From positions 1 through 64,000 of the forward strand of contig JAATFL010000017.1 in NCBI GenBank assembly GCA_015655215.1: DNA of 64,000 nucleotides. Direction: 5' to 3'. Positions 29,688 to 39,940 of this stretch are shown here, in pieces (the stretch's first letter is position 1; every line of letters begins with the position of its first letter). The notes under the pieces were generated by a model. It saw nothing but the letters and a program-made list of their open reading frames with translations, searched no databases and was not told the DNA's origin. The DNA comes from Coriobacteriia bacterium. GTDB lineage: Bacteria > Actinomycetota > Coriobacteriia > Coriobacteriales > RUG033. A program made the position numbers and the translations under genes.

Positions 29688-30908
29688 ATGCCAGTATCAT
29701 CCACCAAGCGGGTCTACCTCGATCACGCCGCCACGTCCCCACTCGACCCTCGCGTGCTCGCCGCCATGGAACCGGTGCTCGCCGGCACCTTTGGCAATGC
29801 GAATTCGCTGCACGAGGAGGGGAGGACGGCCTTTCGTGCACTAGAGGACGCCCGCGCGGCCACCGCGCGCGCCCTCGGCACCCGCGCAGCCAGCGAGATC
29901 GTCTTCACGAGCGGGGGCACCGAGAGCGACAACGCGGCACTCGAGGGAATCGTCGACCGGGCGCGCAACGAGCGTGCCGGCACGCACCTGCATGTGATCG
30001 TCTCCGCCATCGAGCATCACGCCGTCCTTGAGGCCGCCTCGCACCTTGCCGCACTCGGCAACGAGGTGACCTACCTCAAGCCACGCGAGGACGGGTTCAT
30101 CCATCCCGACGACCTCGAGTCGACGATGCGTGCCGATACGGTCCTCGTGAGCGTGATGGCAGCCAACAACGAGACGGGTTGCGTCCAGCCGATAGACGAG
30201 CTCGCCCGCATCGCGCATGCCCACGGAGCCCGTTTCCATGCGGATTGCGTGCAGATGCTGGGCAAGCTTCCCCTCGCGCTCGAGGCTTCCGGTGTGGACG
30301 CGGCTTCCTTCTCGGGCCATAAGGTCGGGGGCCCTAAGGGGGTCGGGGTACTCTACCTGCGACGGGGCACCCCGTTCGCCCCGTGGATGCGAGGTGGGGG
30401 GCAGGAGTCCGGGCGCAGGTCCGGCACTCAGAACGTCCCGGGCATCGTGGGCATGGCCTCCGCCACCACGTTCGCCTGCGACAGGGTGGTCGCCGAGGGG
30501 AAGCGCCTGACGACGCTGCGCGACAGGTTGCTCGCGGGTCTGCTCGCCGTCTCCCCCCGTGTCCATCCGGTGAGCGACCCGTCACAGACGGGGCCGCTCC
30601 TCTCGGATGGCACCTCGGCGGCCGGATGCGGCGTCGGTGGCGTCGGCGCCCACCTCCCCAACATCGCGACCATCGTGGTCGATGGGATGGAGAGCGAGAC
30701 GATGCTCCTACGCCTTGACATGGCGGGTATCGCCGCGTCGGGGGGAAGCGCCTGCTCGACGGGGTCCCTCGAGCCGAGCCACGTGCTGCTGGCGCAGGGC
30801 ATCGCACGGGAACTCGCTTACGGCGAGGTGCGGTTCTCCCTTGGTTCGACCACCACCGGAGAGGATGTCGACGACGTGCTCGCCGTGTTCCCCGCCATCA
30901 TCGGATAG
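29688..30908 (+). CDS. Cysteine desulfurase (NifS/IscS-type)
   Basis: VYLDHAATSPLDPRVLAAMEPV; VSVMAANNETGCVQPI; SFSGHKVGGPKGVGVLYLRRG; GSACSTGS. Confidence 0.92.
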   Translation: MPVSSTKRVYLDHAATSPLDPRVLAAMEPVLAGTFGNANSLHEEGRTAFRALEDARAATARALGTRAASEIVFTSGGTESDNAALEGIVDRARNERAGTHLHVIVSAIEHHAVLEAASHLAALGNEVTYLKPREDGFIHPDDLESTMRADTVLVSVMAANNETGCVQPIDELARIAHAHGARFHADCVQMLGKLPLALEASGVDAASFSGHKVGGPKGVGVLYLRRGTPFAPWMRGGGQESGRRSGTQNVPGIVGMASATTFACDRVVAEGKRLTTLRDRLLAGLLAVSPRVHPVSDPSQTGPLLSDGTSAAGCGVGGVGAHLPNIATIVVDGMESETMLLRLDMAGIAASGGSACSTGSLEPSHVLLAQGIARELAYGEVRFSLGSTTTGEDVDDVLAVFPAIIG

Positions 30909-30932: not shown

Positions 30933-31751
30933 ATGGAGCTTGTAAACTGCCATTGCCATACCGTACGGTCAGGACACGGTCAGGGCACGGTCGCCGAGGT
31001 GGTCCAGGCTGCCAGCGACTCCGGTATCGCCACGTTGGCCCTCACGGAGAACCTGCCGGTCATCGCGGGTCTCGATCCCGACTTCGGCTTCTCCATGGAT
31101 CCCATGACGGTTGCGGCGTATCGGGAGGAGGTCGAGGAGGCGCGTGCCATGCATCCGGAGATGACCCTGCTTGCGGGTGGGGAACTCGATTGGCTCGGAT
31201 GGCTCCCCCAGAACCTCGAGCACGGTCACGAGGTCGCGGCAGGATATGAGTACGTCCTCGGGTCCGTGCACTTCATCGACGGCTGGGAGTTCGACGCTCC
31301 TTGCCATCGTCAGGATTGGGACGAGCCCGGTAGGGCCGACTGGGCCTGGGGTCGATACCTGCAGATATGGACCGAGATGGCCTGCTCGGACCTGCCGATA
31401 ACCACCCTGGCCCATCCCGACCTCGTCAAGAAGTTTGGCGTTTACCCGAGCTATGACCTTGGCGATTGGAACGCCGAGATGGCTCGCGTCGCAGCGCGTA
31501 GTGGACGGATGGTCGAAGTGAACACCTCGGGCATGCGCAACCCGGCACGGGAGTGCTACCCGTCCCTGCCGCTCCTCACCGCCTTTCACGCTGCCGGCGT
31601 CGATTGCACGGTGGGTACCGACGCCCACAGCCCCGACCTGATCGCGTCGGGTCTCGAGAGAGCCTACGCGATCATGCGTCTGGCGGGCTACACCCACCTC
31701 ACCGTGCCCACACGCGCCGGCGATCGGCGCAATATCCCCCTAGGTGATTGA
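30933..31751 (+). CDS. PHP-domain phosphoesterase (histidinol-phosphatase-like)
   Basis: MELVNCHCHTVRSGHGQGTVAEVVQAASDSGIATLALTENLP; PITTLAHPDLV; GTDAHSPDLI. Confidence 0.85.
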   Translation: MELVNCHCHTVRSGHGQGTVAEVVQAASDSGIATLALTENLPVIAGLDPDFGFSMDPMTVAAYREEVEEARAMHPEMTLLAGGELDWLGWLPQNLEHGHEVAAGYEYVLGSVHFIDGWEFDAPCHRQDWDEPGRADWAWGRYLQIWTEMACSDLPITTLAHPDLVKKFGVYPSYDLGDWNAEMARVAARSGRMVEVNTSGMRNPARECYPSLPLLTAFHAAGVDCTVGTDAHSPDLIASGLERAYAIMRLAGYTHLTVPTRAGDRRNIPLGD

Positions 31752-31765
31752 GGAGGCGTCAACCG

Positions 31766-32692
31766 ATGAGTGACACGGACGGCTCGGACGCGGCGAGCAT
31801 GCGAGAGGGGCGCGGTCCCCATCTGGGCACGGGGTTCACGGTCGGGGAGCTCGAGTCGGCCCTCTTCATCCGCTTCCCCGCCGACACCGCCGAGGATTGG
31901 GACGTGTGCGGTCTCAGCGTCGGCGACCGTGCGGCTCCTGTGCACCGCATCGCCCTGGCGCTCGACTCCGATTTCGACGCCGTGCATGCGGCGGCCGAGG
32001 TGGGGTGCGATGTGCTGGTCACCCACCATCCCGTCTACCTCGACCCGCCTCTTCGCATCGGCCCTCCTTCCCCCGCGATGGGGGATGCCGCCGCCGCCAC
32101 CTTCGAGGCTGCCCGGCGCGGGATAGCGCTTCTCGCCTACCACACCTGCCTCGACAGGGCGCTGTGCGCCCAGAGAATGCTGCCCCGGCGCCTCTCGCTC
32201 CACTACCTCCATCCCCTCGAGGGGTGGGCGAGGATGATCTCCGCCGCCGCGCACCCATCCGATGCGGTGGGAACGCACGGCGTTTTCCATCCCGATTCCG
32301 TGCTTCCCGCGTATGGGGCGGTGTGCTCGACGGGCGGCGACCCGATGGCGCTCGGTGACCTCGTCGCCCGATGCACCGCGAACCTCGGTGGTCGCGCTCC
32401 CCGCGTATGGGGCGACCCCTCACGGTTGGTCCACACGGTGGCGACGTGTACGGGGTCAGTCGGCTCGCTTGCCGATGATGCCCTTGCTGGTGGGGTTGAC
32501 GTCCTGATCGCCGGGGAAGTGCGGTATCATGCCGCGGTGGATGCGGCGGGACGTGGACTTGCTCTCATCGAGCTCGGCCACGACGTTTCGGAGTTGCCGC
32601 TCCTTGATTCCCTGAGGCACGCGCTCCTCGCATGCGGTTGTCCGCCGGATCGCATCGTAAACCTCGAGCGTCCCGCCCATTGGCATCTATGA
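31766..32692 (+). CDS. Nif3-like dinuclear metal center hexameric protein
   Basis: EDWDVCGLSVGD; CDVLVTHHPVYLDPP; LIAGEVRYHAAVDAAGRGLALIELGHDVSE. Confidence 0.9.
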   Translation: MSDTDGSDAASMREGRGPHLGTGFTVGELESALFIRFPADTAEDWDVCGLSVGDRAAPVHRIALALDSDFDAVHAAAEVGCDVLVTHHPVYLDPPLRIGPPSPAMGDAAAATFEAARRGIALLAYHTCLDRALCAQRMLPRRLSLHYLHPLEGWARMISAAAHPSDAVGTHGVFHPDSVLPAYGAVCSTGGDPMALGDLVARCTANLGGRAPRVWGDPSRLVHTVATCTGSVGSLADDALAGGVDVLIAGEVRYHAAVDAAGRGLALIELGHDVSELPLLDSLRHALLACGCPPDRIVNLERPAHWHL

Positions 32693-32733
32693 AAACCGAA
32701 TCGCTCGTACCGACATCCGTCGTAGGGAGTCTT

Positions 32734-33444
32734 ATGAATGAATCTCAGGCGTTGCTGCAGCTGCAGGAAGCAGACATCGCGATACTCCGGGTGAAGAAGC
32801 GCCTTGACTCGCTGCCCATCAAGGCCGCCCTCATCAAGGAGCGCACCAAGCGCAACGAGATCGAGGTGAAGGCATCTCAGATCGAAGTCCTACGTGCGCA
32901 GGGCGAGGAGCAGGCGGAGAAGTTCCAGGACGAGGATGCGGAACTGGCGGATAAGATCGCCCAATGCCAGAAGTCGATCGATGACACGAAGGACTTCCGC
33001 GTCATCACCTCGGTGACCCGGGACATGGAGGGCCACATCAAGCGGCGCGAGAAGATCGAGTTCGATATGGGGCTGCTCGCCGATCGCCTCGGGAAGATCG
33101 AGGACCTCGCCGCCCAGGCCGCCAAGAAGACCAAGCAGTGCAACGACCGTGACGCCGAGCTTATCGCCGAATACCGCAAGGCGGGGATCGCCGGTCAGGC
33201 GGAGATCGACGCGGCGCTTGGCCGCCGCGAGGAGGCCGCCGCGCTCATCAGCAGGGAGCATCTCGACTCCTACGACAGGATCCGCAAGGTCAAGGGGGGG
33301 ATCGGAGCCACCAAGCTCGAGGGGAACTGCTGCTCGGTGTGTCGCATCGAGTACCACGACAGCCAGCTCTCGCAACTGCAGACCGGTCCGGATATCTCCA
33401 CCTGTCCCATCTGCCACCGTCTCATCGTCGTGCGAGGTGCGTAG
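32734..33444 (+). CDS. Coiled-coil protein with C-terminal C4 zinc ribbon
   Basis: Long N-terminal coiled coil; GNCCSVCRIEYHDSQLSQLQTGPDISTCPICHRLIV. Confidence 0.85.
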   Translation: MNESQALLQLQEADIAILRVKKRLDSLPIKAALIKERTKRNEIEVKASQIEVLRAQGEEQAEKFQDEDAELADKIAQCQKSIDDTKDFRVITSVTRDMEGHIKRREKIEFDMGLLADRLGKIEDLAAQAAKKTKQCNDRDAELIAEYRKAGIAGQAEIDAALGRREEAAALISREHLDSYDRIRKVKGGIGATKLEGNCCSVCRIEYHDSQLSQLQTGPDISTCPICHRLIVVRGA

Positions 33445-33445
33445 C

Positions 33446-34459
33446 ATGGCCTCGGCTTCGGGAACCCATGGGGATACCCATGATGTTCGCGTGAGGGCCA
33501 TCCTCCAGACCGATGGCGGCAGCCGGGGGAACCCGGGCCTTGCCGGCTGCGGTTTCGAGTTGCGGGTCTTGGGCGCCGGCGATCTCAAGGGTGCCCAGGT
33601 CCTTGGGGGTGGCTGGTCCATCCCGCGCGCGACCAACAACGTCGCCGAGTACTCCGCTCTCATCTGGGGGCTTGAGAACGCCTTGCGCTGGGGCGTTGAC
33701 GAGCTTGAGGTGCGCGCCGACAGCCAGCTCATGATCATGCAGATGATCGGTCGCTACAAGGTCAAGAACGCGGAACTTGTCGTATTGCACGAGCGCGCCC
33801 TCGCCATTACCGCTCGGTTCCCATATCCCGTGCATTTCACCCACGTCCGTCGAGAGTATAATAAGGAAGCCGACAGGCTCGCCAACGCGGCGATGGACGC
33901 GATGGGTCCCGCGGGGACCTTTCTCATCGGGTTCGACGGTTCTGAGGCGCCTTCCTCGGCTTTGCCAGAGGTCACCTTCGCCCCCGGTCCCGTCTCCGTC
34001 GAGATGCCCCCCTCTCGCGCATCCGATGCGTGCGGAACCCAGTTGGAGCTTCCCCATATCCAAGAACCCGAGGAGGTCTTTGACATGTACGAACTCACGG
34101 TTAAGGACCATTTTGACGCGGCGCACGCTCTCACAGGCCACAGCGGCCAGTGCGCGGATCTCCATGGGCATACGTGGGACGTCGGGGTGACGGTCGAGGG
34201 GACGCAGCTTGACGACATCGGCATCCTCTATGACTTCGAGGCCCTCAAGGCCGACCTCAAAGACGTGCTCGCACTCTTCGATCACACGTACCTCAACGAT
34301 ACGCCCCCGTTTGCCTCCATGAACTCGACCGCGGAGAACATGGCACGCGTGATATGGGACGAGATGGAGCGTCGCCTCGCCGCCAAGGTCGAGAAGGTGC
34401 ATTTGAGCGAGGTCGACATCTGGGAGTCGCCCATCGCAAAGCTGGCATATCGGCGATAG
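33446..34459 (+). CDS. Ribonuclease HI - 6-carboxytetrahydropterin synthase (QueD) fusion protein
   Basis: N-terminal RNase HI: ILQTDGGSRGNPGLAGCGFEL, RATNNVAEYSALIWGLENAL, ELEVRADSQLMIMQMIGRYKVKNAEL, HVRREYNKEADRLANAAMD; C-terminal QueD: DHFDAAHALTGHSGQCADLHGHTWDVGVTVEG, DFEALKADLKDVLALFDHTYLND, STAENMARVIW; one uninterrupted frame. Confidence 0.88.
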   Translation: MASASGTHGDTHDVRVRAILQTDGGSRGNPGLAGCGFELRVLGAGDLKGAQVLGGGWSIPRATNNVAEYSALIWGLENALRWGVDELEVRADSQLMIMQMIGRYKVKNAELVVLHERALAITARFPYPVHFTHVRREYNKEADRLANAAMDAMGPAGTFLIGFDGSEAPSSALPEVTFAPGPVSVEMPPSRASDACGTQLELPHIQEPEEVFDMYELTVKDHFDAAHALTGHSGQCADLHGHTWDVGVTVEGTQLDDIGILYDFEALKADLKDVLALFDHTYLNDTPPFASMNSTAENMARVIWDEMERRLAAKVEKVHLSEVDIWESPIAKLAYRR

Positions 34460-34476: not shown

Positions 34477-35820
34477 ATGGACATCAGAAGAGAGTTTCCC
34501 GAGGAACTGGAGAGCGTCGACGTTGGGGACGATGTCGGCACCGTCGACGGGGCGCATGCCATGGATGGCCAACCCACCATCCTTCTCGGAGTGACCGGCG
34601 GTATCGCCGCCTACAAGGCGTGCGAGGTCTTGCGCGGCCTGCAAAAGGCGGGGATGCACGTCAAGGTGGTCATGACGGAGCATGCCCGGGAGTTCGTTGG
34701 TCCCACCACCTTCAAGGCGCTCACCCATGAGCCGGTCGCGACGGACCTCTTCGACGAGCCGGGCGATCCGATCCACCACATCTCGCTTGCAGCCGAGGCG
34801 GACCTCTTCCTCATCTGCCCCGCCACCGCCAACGTCATGGCCAAGATCGCCAAGGGCGTTGCCGACGACCTGCTCACCACGACGGCGCTCGCCACGGAGG
34901 CCCCCCTCGTCGTCGCTCCGGCCATGAACGTGCACATGTGGGACGACGAGCGCACCAGGGAGAGCGTCGCGCTCCTCGAGGCGCAGGGCGTTCGCATCAT
35001 CGAGCCTACCGAGGGGCATCTCGCCTGCGGGTACGATGGTGAGGGTAAGCTCGCTCCCGTGGAGCAGATCGTCGCCGAGACGCTCGAGGAACTCGCCCTC
35101 CACGCGCATGACATGGAAGGGTGCGAGGTGCTCGTCACCGCCGGCCCCACCTATGAGCCCATCGACCCCGTGCGCTTCGTCGGCAACCGCTCAAGCGGCC
35201 GGACCGGGTACGCCATCGCAGCCGAGGCCGCTCGCCGCGGCGCCCACGTCACGCTGGTGACCGGCCCCGCCGATCTACCCGTTCCGTTCGGCGTCGACGC
35301 GGTGCGAGTGCAGACGGCCGAGGAGATGCTCGCCGCCGCGCGTGAGGTCTTCGACATGTGCGACGCCGCGATCTTCTCGGCGGCGGTGGCCGACTACCGT
35401 CCTGCGGTCTATGCCGAGAAGAAGATCAAGAAGGACCCTGCGCGCCCCACCGAGGGTCTCACCCTGACGCTTGTGCGCAACCCCGACATCATCGCGACCC
35501 TCGCTGCCGGCAAGGCCATGCGGGACCATGACGTCACCTCGCGTACCTCGCCCGTCTACGTCGTGGGGTTTGCGGCGGAGACGGGCGATCCGGTGGTCGC
35601 CGCCCGGGAGAAGCTCGCCAGCAAGCACGCCGATCTCATCGTCGCCAACGACGTCTCCCATCCCGACTTGGGATTCGGCACCGCGGACAACCGCGTCTGG
35701 CTTCTCGACGCCCAGGCGTCGACGGAGCTGCCCGTCCTTTCGAAGCGTCAGATCGCGCAGCGGATCATCGATCGCGTCTCGGGTGCGCTGGTTGCGGCCA
35801 ATGCCGGGAAGGATGCCTGA
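34477..35820 (+). CDS. coaBC: Bifunctional phosphopantothenoylcysteine decarboxylase / phosphopantothenate-cysteine ligase
   Basis: ILLGVTGGIAAYKACEVLRGLQKAGMHVKVVMTEHA; VAPAMNVHMWDD; VTAGPTYEPIDPVRFVGNRSSGRTGYAIA. Confidence 0.95.
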   Translation: MDIRREFPEELESVDVGDDVGTVDGAHAMDGQPTILLGVTGGIAAYKACEVLRGLQKAGMHVKVVMTEHAREFVGPTTFKALTHEPVATDLFDEPGDPIHHISLAAEADLFLICPATANVMAKIAKGVADDLLTTTALATEAPLVVAPAMNVHMWDDERTRESVALLEAQGVRIIEPTEGHLACGYDGEGKLAPVEQIVAETLEELALHAHDMEGCEVLVTAGPTYEPIDPVRFVGNRSSGRTGYAIAAEAARRGAHVTLVTGPADLPVPFGVDAVRVQTAEEMLAAAREVFDMCDAAIFSAAVADYRPAVYAEKKIKKDPARPTEGLTLTLVRNPDIIATLAAGKAMRDHDVTSRTSPVYVVGFAAETGDPVVAAREKLASKHADLIVANDVSHPDLGFGTADNRVWLLDAQASTELPVLSKRQIAQRIIDRVSGALVAANAGKDA

Positions 35821-36610: not shown

Positions 36611-36766
36611 CCATAGCGGCTCCATCGTCCTATTCCGCGAACGGCGCCTCTGTATGTGACCACGTCACCGACAACCGCCCATGATGTCCTTATCCTTCAT
36701 CGTAGATGGTCAATCGCGTGAGGGCCTACCGGTTTTTGACCCCCACGGTCGTTGAGAGGACAAGGG

Positions 36767-39700
36767 ATGACCAAGGTATCCGAGCGTTTCGCGCGTGATG
36801 TTGCCGCCATCGTCGGGGATGACCATATCCGCACCGACCGAGTCGAACGCAAAATGTACTCGTTCGACATCGGCGAGATGCCCCCTATGGTGAGACCGCT
36901 TGTTCCGGCTGGCCTTGCGGGTGCCGTGACACGGCCCGAGGACGAGGGCCAACTTGCGCGCGTTCTCCAGCTCGCCACGCACGAGGGCGTGCCCGTCGTT
37001 CCCCGTGCATGGGCCACGAGCGGGTACGGCGGCGTTCTCCCCCAGGAGGGGTCGCTGATCATCGACCTGTCTGGTTGGGATGCCATCGTCGCCGTGGACC
37101 CCGTCGGCCTCACCGTCACCACGCAGCCCAGCGCCATCTGGGAGGAGGTCGACCGTCGCATCGTCCACCAGGGCCTCGAGTTGCGTCTGCACCCCTCCAG
37201 CTATCCGTCCTCGTCCGTTGCGGGATGGCTTGCGCAGGGCGGTAGTGGGTACGGGTCGTATGAGTATGGCGAGTTCGTCGATAGCGTCGTCTCCGCCCGC
37301 GTGATGCAGGCCGACGGGCTCATCCGTGAATTCGAGGGCGACGACCTACGCACCTACGTCGCAGGCGCAGAGGGGACCACGGGCATCATCACCCAGGTCA
37401 CGTTCAAGGTTCGCCGTCTCGAGGCGCAGAGCATCGTCCTCATCGCATTCCCCAGCGCCCAGTCACTTGTCGACACCATGGTCGAGGCGTCGGCCGCCAA
37501 GCTTCCGCTCTGGTCGGTCACCTACATCAATCCCACGGCTGCCAGCTTGAAGCGAAGGCTTCCCAGCCGCTCGCACCACCCCTACGAGGAGGGGCTCCTC
37601 TCGGAGGGGAAGCTCCCGGAGGCCTATCTGCTCACCGTCGCCTACCCCACGTCGCGTGCCGGTGAGATAGAGGAACGGTTCATGCGCTTCGCAACGTCGC
37701 ACGGTGGCACACGCCTCTCGCGCGAAGCGGCCGAGCACGAGTGGTCCGAGCGCACCGCCCCTATGCGCCTCAAGCGCATAGGGCCCTCCATCATCCCCAC
37801 CGAGGTCGTCGTCCCGCTCGTCCAGATGGCAGCGGTGCTCGATGATATCGACGCCACGATCACACAGGACTTCGTGCTCGAGGGCATGGTGGCGAAGGGT
37901 GACGACGTCGTGCTCCTGGGTTACTTCCCGCACGACGTGCGCTCATTCGCGTTCAACGTCGCCTTCGCACTCTCGCTCGCCGTCATCAAGATCGCCCGCA
38001 AGCATGGCGGTGCGGGCTACTCCACCGGTCTGTACTTTCGCAACGAGGCCATCTCGGTGCTGGGGAGAGAGAGGATCGAGGCGCTGCGCGCCTTCAAGCG
38101 CACAGTGGATCCCGCCGGCATCCTCAACCCAGGCAAGGTGTTCGACCATGGTCACGGCGGTGCGGGCAGCGCAGGCCCGGGACACGGTGGGAGAGCTCTC
38201 GATCGGCTCATGGGAGCCGCCTCGAAGATGATGGTGCTGATGCTTCCCATGGCCAATCGCGCAACACCTCCGCCGACCCTCGGCGACATGTCCAAAGATA
38301 TCAACGGGATTCCGGGTGACGCCGCCTACATGGCCACGGCCTGTGCTCGCTGCGGCTATTGCGTGCATACCTGCGAGCAGTACTCCGGCCGTGGTTGGGA
38401 AAGTCAGAGCCCCCGCGGCAAGTACGCGTATCTGCGCGAGGTCGTCGCTGGCCGCGAGAGGTGGGACCGCACGGCGGTGGACCGGACGCTGCTGTGCACC
38501 ACCTGCGAGGTTTGCGACGACCGCTGCCAGCTGGGTCTTCCCGTCGAGCATGATTGGATGGAGCTGCGCGGCAAACTCGTGGGGGAGCAGAAGATGGGCA
38601 CCTTCCCACCGTTCGAGATGATGGGCGCGGCGTTGCGCGGCGAGGGTGACATATGGGCGGGTAAGCGCGAGCATCGTGCCGACTGGCTGCCCGAGGACGT
38701 CGCCGCGAAGCTCCCCGAGCGGGCGAAGGTGCTCTACTTCGCGGGCTGCACCGCGAGCTACGTCGAGAACGACATCGCCGAGTCCACCCTTCGCCTCCTA
38801 CAGGATTCCGGTGTGGACGTGACCTATATGGGCACGAAGGAGAGTTGCTGCGGTATCCCCATGAAGATGGCGGGCCGCTGGGACATCTTCGAGGAGATCT
38901 ACGAGAAGAACGTCGCCGCCGCCCGGGAGACGGGGGCCACGACGATCGTCACCTCCTGCCCGGCCTGCGCGCTCGTGTGGAAGGAGCTCTATGCCGAGTT
39001 GGCCGCCAAGCGCGGCGAGCCGTACGAATTCAAGGTCAAGCACTACTCCGAGTTTATCGCTCCGGCCATCAAGGATGGTACGCTCAAGCTCGACAACGAC
39101 GTGTTCGCGGGCCGTACCTTCACGTTCCACGACTCCTGCCATGCCGGCCGTGCACAAGGTATCTACGAGCCGCCGCGCGAGATGCTCGAGGCCATCCCCG
39201 GCATCAACTACGTGGAAATGGAGCACAACCGCGAGGAAGGTATCTGCTGCGGCTCCGTGCTCACGCTCATCGGTGAGCCATCCGTCGCCCCCATCCTGGG
39301 CGAGCGGCGCCTCGACGAGGCCGTCGACGTGGGTGCCGATACCGTGGTCGCGCTGTGTCCCTGCTGCCAGGTGCAGCTGCGCGCATCCGCCGAGAAGGCG
39401 GGCATGGACCTCGAGATCGACGACCTGGCGCGCGTGGTCGCGACGGCTGCCGGCTATGAGATCCCGACGTCGAAGCATGAGACCATGTACCAATGGGGAG
39501 TGTTCGAAAAGTTCATCGACCTGATGCAGCCGCAGGACATGGCCGTGTTCATGGGCCGCATCTTCCCGCAGATGGTGGATGCCATGGGTGGTATGGGAAC
39601 CATGATGCGCGGTATGGCCAAGATGCCTGGCGGCCCTGCGATGATGGCGAAGATGATGCCGGTGATGTTCCCCCAGATGGCCCCTAGTATCCTTGGTAAG

Positions 39701-39940
39701 GTCATGCCCGACCTCATCGCGGAGGCAGTCGACTACATGGGTGAGATGCCCCCTGACATGGCCGACCTCATGCCCGACCTGCTCCCCAGGACCATGGATG
39801 CGACCATGCCCACCTACCTGCCCGAACTGGTTCCGCACCTCGTGCCGCTGTTCATCACGTACCTGCGCACGGGCGAGTTGCCCGAGCGCACCTCTGGTGA
39901 CTCTTGCTCCGCAGGTTGCTCCAGTCCGCATGCGGCATAG
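36767..39940 (+). CDS. FAD-binding (GlcD-like) and (Fe-S)-binding (HdrB/CCG-domain) oxidoreductase fusion with Met/Pro-rich C-terminal tail
   Basis: FAD_binding_4-like PVVPRAWATSGYGGVLPQEGSLIIDLSG; two CxxCxxCxxxC motifs (CARCGYCVHTC, CTTCEVCDDRC); CCG-type motifs KESCCGIPMKMAG, SCHAGRAQG, EGICCGSVLTL, CPCCQVQL. Confidence 0.88.
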   Translation: MTKVSERFARDVAAIVGDDHIRTDRVERKMYSFDIGEMPPMVRPLVPAGLAGAVTRPEDEGQLARVLQLATHEGVPVVPRAWATSGYGGVLPQEGSLIIDLSGWDAIVAVDPVGLTVTTQPSAIWEEVDRRIVHQGLELRLHPSSYPSSSVAGWLAQGGSGYGSYEYGEFVDSVVSARVMQADGLIREFEGDDLRTYVAGAEGTTGIITQVTFKVRRLEAQSIVLIAFPSAQSLVDTMVEASAAKLPLWSVTYINPTAASLKRRLPSRSHHPYEEGLLSEGKLPEAYLLTVAYPTSRAGEIEERFMRFATSHGGTRLSREAAEHEWSERTAPMRLKRIGPSIIPTEVVVPLVQMAAVLDDIDATITQDFVLEGMVAKGDDVVLLGYFPHDVRSFAFNVAFALSLAVIKIARKHGGAGYSTGLYFRNEAISVLGRERIEALRAFKRTVDPAGILNPGKVFDHGHGGAGSAGPGHGGRALDRLMGAASKMMVLMLPMANRATPPPTLGDMSKDINGIPGDAAYMATACARCGYCVHTCEQYSGRGWESQSPRGKYAYLREVVAGRERWDRTAVDRTLLCTTCEVCDDRCQLGLPVEHDWMELRGKLVGEQKMGTFPPFEMMGAALRGEGDIWAGKREHRADWLPEDVAAKLPERAKVLYFAGCTASYVENDIAESTLRLLQDSGVDVTYMGTKESCCGIPMKMAGRWDIFEEIYEKNVAAARETGATTIVTSCPACALVWKELYAELAAKRGEPYEFKVKHYSEFIAPAIKDGTLKLDNDVFAGRTFTFHDSCHAGRAQGIYEPPREMLEAIPGINYVEMEHNREEGICCGSVLTLIGEPSVAPILGERRLDEAVDVGADTVVALCPCCQVQLRASAEKAGMDLEIDDLARVVATAAGYEIPTSKHETMYQWGVFEKFIDLMQPQDMAVFMGRIFPQMVDAMGGMGTMMRGMAKMPGGPAMMAKMMPVMFPQMAPSILGKVMPDLIAEAVDYMGEMPPDMADLMPDLLPRTMDATMPTYLPELVPHLVPLFITYLRTGELPERTSGDSCSAGCSSPHAA

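Follow-up and report, generated by a model that had tools for sequence, protein, structure and literature searches.

The window analysed here, a stretch of 64,000 nucleotides from a Coriobacteriia bacterium, carries one stop-free frame of 337 aa (33446-34459, + strand, from its translation) in which an RNase HI domain is joined by a linker to a QueD/PTPS domain. The features of the locus are the following:

29688-30908, + strand: class-V aminotransferase (NifS-like), upstream; domain annotation
30933-31751, + strand: PHP-domain protein, upstream; domain annotation
31748-32692, + strand: DUF34/NIF3 protein, upstream; domain annotation, conserved in relatives
32632-33444, + strand: coiled-coil/C4 zinc-ribbon protein, upstream, with a putative start; Zn_ribbon_9 match below the Pfam cut-off, conserved neighbour
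33446-34459, + strand: fused rnhA-queD gene, 337 codons plus stop; translation, Pfam, NCBIfam and relatives
33494-33898, + strand: RNase HI domain (residues 17-151) of the Rv2228c type, with D23, E68, D92 and D143; HMMs, sequence and fold match
33899-34084, + strand: linker (residues 152-213), predicted to be disordered, unconserved between families; pLDDT and relatives
34070-34076, + strand: GAGGAGG, Shine-Dalgarno-like, 8 nt upstream of an in-frame ATG; predicted pairing of -12.8 kcal/mol
34085-34459, + strand: QueD/PTPS domain, also candidate free QueD of 124 aa with the N-terminus MYELT; HMMs, residues and separate queD starts
34477-35820, + strand: coaBC (Flavoprotein and DFP domains), downstream; domain annotation, conserved in relatives

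Only 1 nt separates the end of the zinc-ribbon gene from the start of the fusion, and 17 nt lie between the end of the fusion and the start of coaBC. Upstream, the nifS-like gene is preceded by rpe, and the order der-plsY-gpsA-rpe-nifS-PHP-nif3-zinc ribbon-rnhA/queD-coaBC is found, whole or partial, in most relatives. Further along the window (36752-39940, + strand) lies a gene for a 1062-aa protein made of an FAD-linked oxidase, a 4Fe-4S/CCG (GlpC-like) part and a Met-rich tail.

A preliminary description of this DNA had proposed a single 337-codon frame with two catalytically complete domains, and the translation contains every motif that it quoted. Pfam places RVT_3/RNase_H at about residues 19-149 (61.1 and 27.8 bits) and PTPS at residues 216-336 (127.7 bits). 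Among the NCBIfam models, the first half best matches the RNase H part of PRK07238 (RNase H/acid phosphatase), and the second half matches QueD TIGR03367 with 99.9 bits for a cut-off of 89.25. On alignment, both the DEDD catalytic set of RNase HI (D23, E68, D92, D143) and the catalytic and Zn-binding set of QueD (H227, C236, H240, H242, D279, H280, E327) are complete. The fusion is thus predicted, from its residues, to combine RNase HI activity on RNA-DNA hybrids with pterin synthase activity.

The nearest solved RNase H, by sequence and by predicted fold, is the N-terminal domain of Rv2228c (3hst), which is the best Foldseek match (E 1.2e-14, TM 0.85 by target length) and shows 44% identity over the RNase H domain in the fold match. 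The nearest solved PTPS relatives by sequence include QueD enzymes; as all of the 50 structural matches listed are RNase H, the QueD fold is assigned from HMM and sequence matches. The structure model, a step that the preliminary description had suggested, was built from five sequences (mean pLDDT 70.9, pTM 0.48), and the placement of the domains in it is therefore uninterpretable. Its pLDDT is below 50 across residues 162-212, which fits a disordered linker of about 60 aa.

Fused and separate genes among relatives

When 201 genomes of the order were searched, 21 relatives gave full-length matches in a single frame, with 46-53% identity; further fused loci appeared as two alignments owing to their long linkers. 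A class-wide search added further loci, and four GTDB loci come from Coriobacteriales and Coriobacteriia MAGs, at least some of which duplicate genomes of the order search. Counting one locus per genome, 50 are fused, 33 carry both genes in separate frames, 8 carry QueD only and 5 carry RNase H only. Without three fused loci in which both active sites have degenerated (L036, L037 and L041), the fusion is present in 47 loci of the class, window included, so that the conservation for which the preliminary description wished to search is established. Its carriers belong to many genera and are mostly gut-type actinobacteria of one class. The RNase H Glu and D92 are kept in 46 of these 47 loci and the QueD set in all of them. 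The linkers of relatives vary in length between about 1 and 218 aa, with a median of 49, and their composition is enriched in Ala, Glu, Ser, Gly, Pro and Thr. A literature search for RNase H-QueD fusions found no relevant description.

Many relatives have rnhA and queD as two distinct neighbours in a single operon (nif3, zinc ribbon, rnhA, queD, coaBC), the usual arrangement in the other orders of this class. The separate queD usually starts 8 codons before the HFDAAH motif, which is the MYELT position of the window, and its GGAGG-like site either overlaps the stop of rnhA or lies after it, as in L147 'CTGTTCTAAGAGGAGGTCTGCGTGTAC'. On a tree of the joined domains, quick and unrooted, so that gains are indistinguishable from losses, the fused or separate label changes 9 times, 5 of which are forced by starred branches; judged from this tree, the state has changed at least five times. 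The suggestion of a lineage-specific operon-collapse fusion was therefore right in kind, since other orders have the two genes side by side as distinct frames and fusion has occurred several times; that fusion, and probably fission too, is recurring is well supported. An Rv2228c-type rnhA and a queD of the COG0720/PTPS group would have started as adjacent genes of one operon; loss of the rnhA stop would then have joined the frames, with a low-complexity linker expanding between them. Globally, the class displays the stages of such a fusion: distinct genes, genes kept apart by a single in-frame stop, fused genes that keep the start of the second domain, fused genes that have lost it, and loci that have lost one domain. 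Domain loss is found in L038-L040, which lack RNase H in the operon, and in L056 and L058, which lack QueD.

The fusion parallels the mycobacterial RNase HI-CobC proteins (Rv2228c and MSMEG_4305; NF005567/PRK07238), with which it shares an N-terminal RNase HI of the same type, a variable linker and a C-terminal enzyme of cofactor metabolism. However, the cofactor enzyme differs, the C-terminal domain in the window being PTPS/QueD and not CobC/phosphatase, and the match to PRK07238 is limited to residues 17-153 (122.5 bits against a cut-off of 326). The lineage is also another one, and the window keeps a free QueD start inside the frame. In the mycobacterial proteins, the domains are dissociable in vivo, and fixation of the fusion was ascribed, as the most probable cause, to drift (PMC7466739).

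The pathway of the PTPS half

QueC, Tgt, FolE and FolB were surveyed in 28 genomes, and an order-wide census covered 163 near-complete Coriobacteriales genomes. The pathway claims rest on relatives; the genome of the window is 79% complete and absences there mean little. In this incomplete genome, the fused frame is the sole PTPS, and QueC, FolE and FolK gave no match.

Of the 28 genomes, 26 lack FolB; the two that have it are those without PTPS. FolE is found in 27, the exception being the genome of the window. Among the 163 near-complete genomes, 110 carry PTPS, 54 carry FolB and only one (G171) carries both, the overlap having been compared by hand between two lists; every one of them has PTPS or FolB, and 162 have FolK. 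This mutual exclusivity of PTPS and FolB across the order, which derives from only a small number of independent switches (in family f10, and in genus g39 of family f2), suggests the folate step. Operon-type PTPS occurs in ten near-complete genomes and is the sole PTPS in nine of them. In the genomes that lack it, there is either FolB or a second PTPS, which is free-standing and bears CENLHGH. The PTPS half would therefore fill the FolB step, giving 6-hydroxymethyl-dihydropterin for folate, a role that we consider reasonably probable.

The signature residues of the operon PTPS do not follow those described for such a role. According to published motif rules (PMC5041015), CxxxHGH is the QueD signature and CENLHGH a hybrid of PTPS-I and PTPS-III; the PTPS-III Glu has been described as the basis of FolB bypass, and in Rickettsia its absence was one argument against a folate role (PMC5615194). 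In the window, the QueD/PTPS-I motif is present as C236-ADL-HGH, and the position of the PTPS-III Glu (ExxHGH) is occupied by Ala. The QueD-type Cys is found in all 80 sequences of operon PTPS and the PTPS-III Glu in none. The operon PTPS thus resembles PTPS-III in occurring without FolB but with FolE, FolK and FolP, as seen in relatives, and differs from it in lacking the diagnostic Glu, which is carried by the other PTPS of the order. This free-standing second PTPS (L062-L066) is widespread in the order, and its CENLHGH combines the QueD Cys with the PTPS-III Glu. Either the PTPS-III Glu rule does not cover every case, or the operon PTPS acts elsewhere and there is an aldolase that has escaped recognition; such an aldolase could be the enzyme of the FolB step.

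An alternative role for the PTPS half is that of a genuine QueD, producing 6-carboxytetrahydropterin for queuosine or for a different 7-deazapurine. The TIGR03367 score above cut-off, the CxxxHGH motif without the PTPS-III Glu in 80 of 80 sequences and the QueD enzymes among the nearest solved relatives all agree with it, and the window protein shares with QueD/PTPS-I the Zn-binding His, the catalytic Cys, the Asp-His pair and the Glu. However, the operon PTPS is fused to or adjoins RNase HI in an operon without queuosine genes. In the 28 genomes, in which the preliminary description's idea of looking for queC and tgt elsewhere was pursued, tgt proved universal (28 of 28), but full-length QueC was absent from all the intact-fusion genomes tested and present only in G002, G042, G196 and G091, none of which has an intact fused QueD. 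Furthermore, most gut Actinomycetota are reported to be queuine salvagers (PMC11130926), queuosine synthesis was predicted in only two Coriobacteria species (PMC6593275), and PTPS is replaced in other lineages by FolB, which plays no part in queuosine synthesis. A queuosine role is thus unlikely, and the automatically named QueD probably serves folate.

Several minor observations concern the same genes. G109 holds a divergent two-piece QueC-like match (SGGMDST; L071, 673-1698, minus strand), the sole such match in an intact-fusion genome. Weak QueC matches in most genomes were not counted, their coverage of the model being short and mostly limited to its first 50-100 positions. The three genomes with degenerated fusions (G042, G196 and G091) carry a second PTPS besides their full-length QueC. 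In G029, folE, folP and folK are consecutive and folB is lacking, and a 547-aa frame of this genome (L103, 2115-3758, minus strand) fuses FolK to a tetrapyrrole-methylase-type (TP_methylase) domain. In G009, folE adjoins a gene (L107, 3219-4538, minus strand) whose 439-aa product fuses FolP with FolK, and here too FolB is lacking.

A nested queD start and the relation between the two halves

The preliminary description had overlooked the in-frame ATG at 34085, which follows a strong Shine-Dalgarno sequence (GAGGAGG) and 8 nt where the QueD domain begins (34070-34087). This ATG lies at the position of separate queD starts, and GAGGAGG agrees in place and sequence with the ribosome site of unfused queD genes (e.g. 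L147, L151 and L154). Over the 47 fused loci, the 28 codons that precede QueD hold ATGs at 2.4 times the frequency seen elsewhere inside the frames, and 60% of these ATGs show a predicted anti-Shine-Dalgarno pairing of -5 kcal/mol or stronger, against 12% of the other internal ATGs (p ~1e-8, kinship ignored). In family f2, a purine run and the sequence ATGGAR are retained at this position by five fused loci. The linker stretch that comes next (xYxGPGxLSG...GGHYELTV) is still present in three relatives that have no RNase H part, where it extends the N-terminus. Randomisation of synonymous codons at the internal Shine-Dalgarno (8/300 shuffles) is a weak test because Lys, Arg, Glu and Gly before Met already impose purine runs; selection at the codon level is thus unsupported.

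No plausible internal start exists in 15 of the 47 fused loci, that is about one third, and there the fusion itself must therefore function. Indeed, L043 (G009, 93% complete) has no plausible start before QueD, no other PTPS and no FolB, so that its QueD is presumably delivered as a fusion. In the window, the survival of the ancestral ribosome site and start within the frame makes a fusion accompanied by free QueD plausible. This ribosome site and start codon, kept in the window and in a good number of its relatives, though not in every one, would yield free QueD alongside the fusion, and we think it quite likely that the internal start is used in this way. Overall, the best explanation, to which we give moderate credence, is a fusion of operon genes whose PTPS half works for folate and which is made beside free QueD. 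A more tentative proposition, for which our confidence falls somewhat short of even, is that a Cys-only PTPS without the PTPS-III Glu performs the FolB step, the COG0720 signature rule being incomplete, and that one gene gives both the RNase HI fusion and a free pterin synthase through a nested ribosome site. The locus offers a clean test of a Cys-only PTPS at the FolB step.

The preliminary description also raised the possibility that the fusion couples a tRNA-modification precursor enzyme to a nucleic-acid module. Such a coupling of both activities could mean local control of RNA-DNA hybrids together with pterin/tRNA metabolism, or the placing of RNase H on a PTPS oligomer. The occurrence of the fusion in many genera, where it has arisen several times, would fit this, and L036, L037 and L041, in which an in-frame fusion is retained although both domains are catalytically degenerate, hint at a structural role. 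However, linkers vary widely in length and sequence, separate genes and single-domain losses are common, and the RNase HI-CobC analogue shows no coupling in vivo (PMC7466739). The tRNA-modification version fares no better, since the fused genomes tested have no normal QueC and the PTPS/FolB exclusivity points to folate. Coupling thus appears distinctly improbable, and the RNase HI and PTPS halves very probably have no functional link.

An assembly or sequencing error joining two ORFs is rejected as extremely improbable: the stop codon between the domains that the preliminary description named as its sign does occur in L045, L162 and L163, which only this in-frame stop separates from the fusion, but it is lacking in 47 fused loci across many genera, including that of G111 (a 2-contig, 99% complete genome), so that it reflects a stage of evolution rather than an error. 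In another fused relative (L044, the same as L026, 1360-2358, minus strand; G025), the RNase H half is degenerate (E to S, D to A and C-terminal part gone) and the QueD half is intact.
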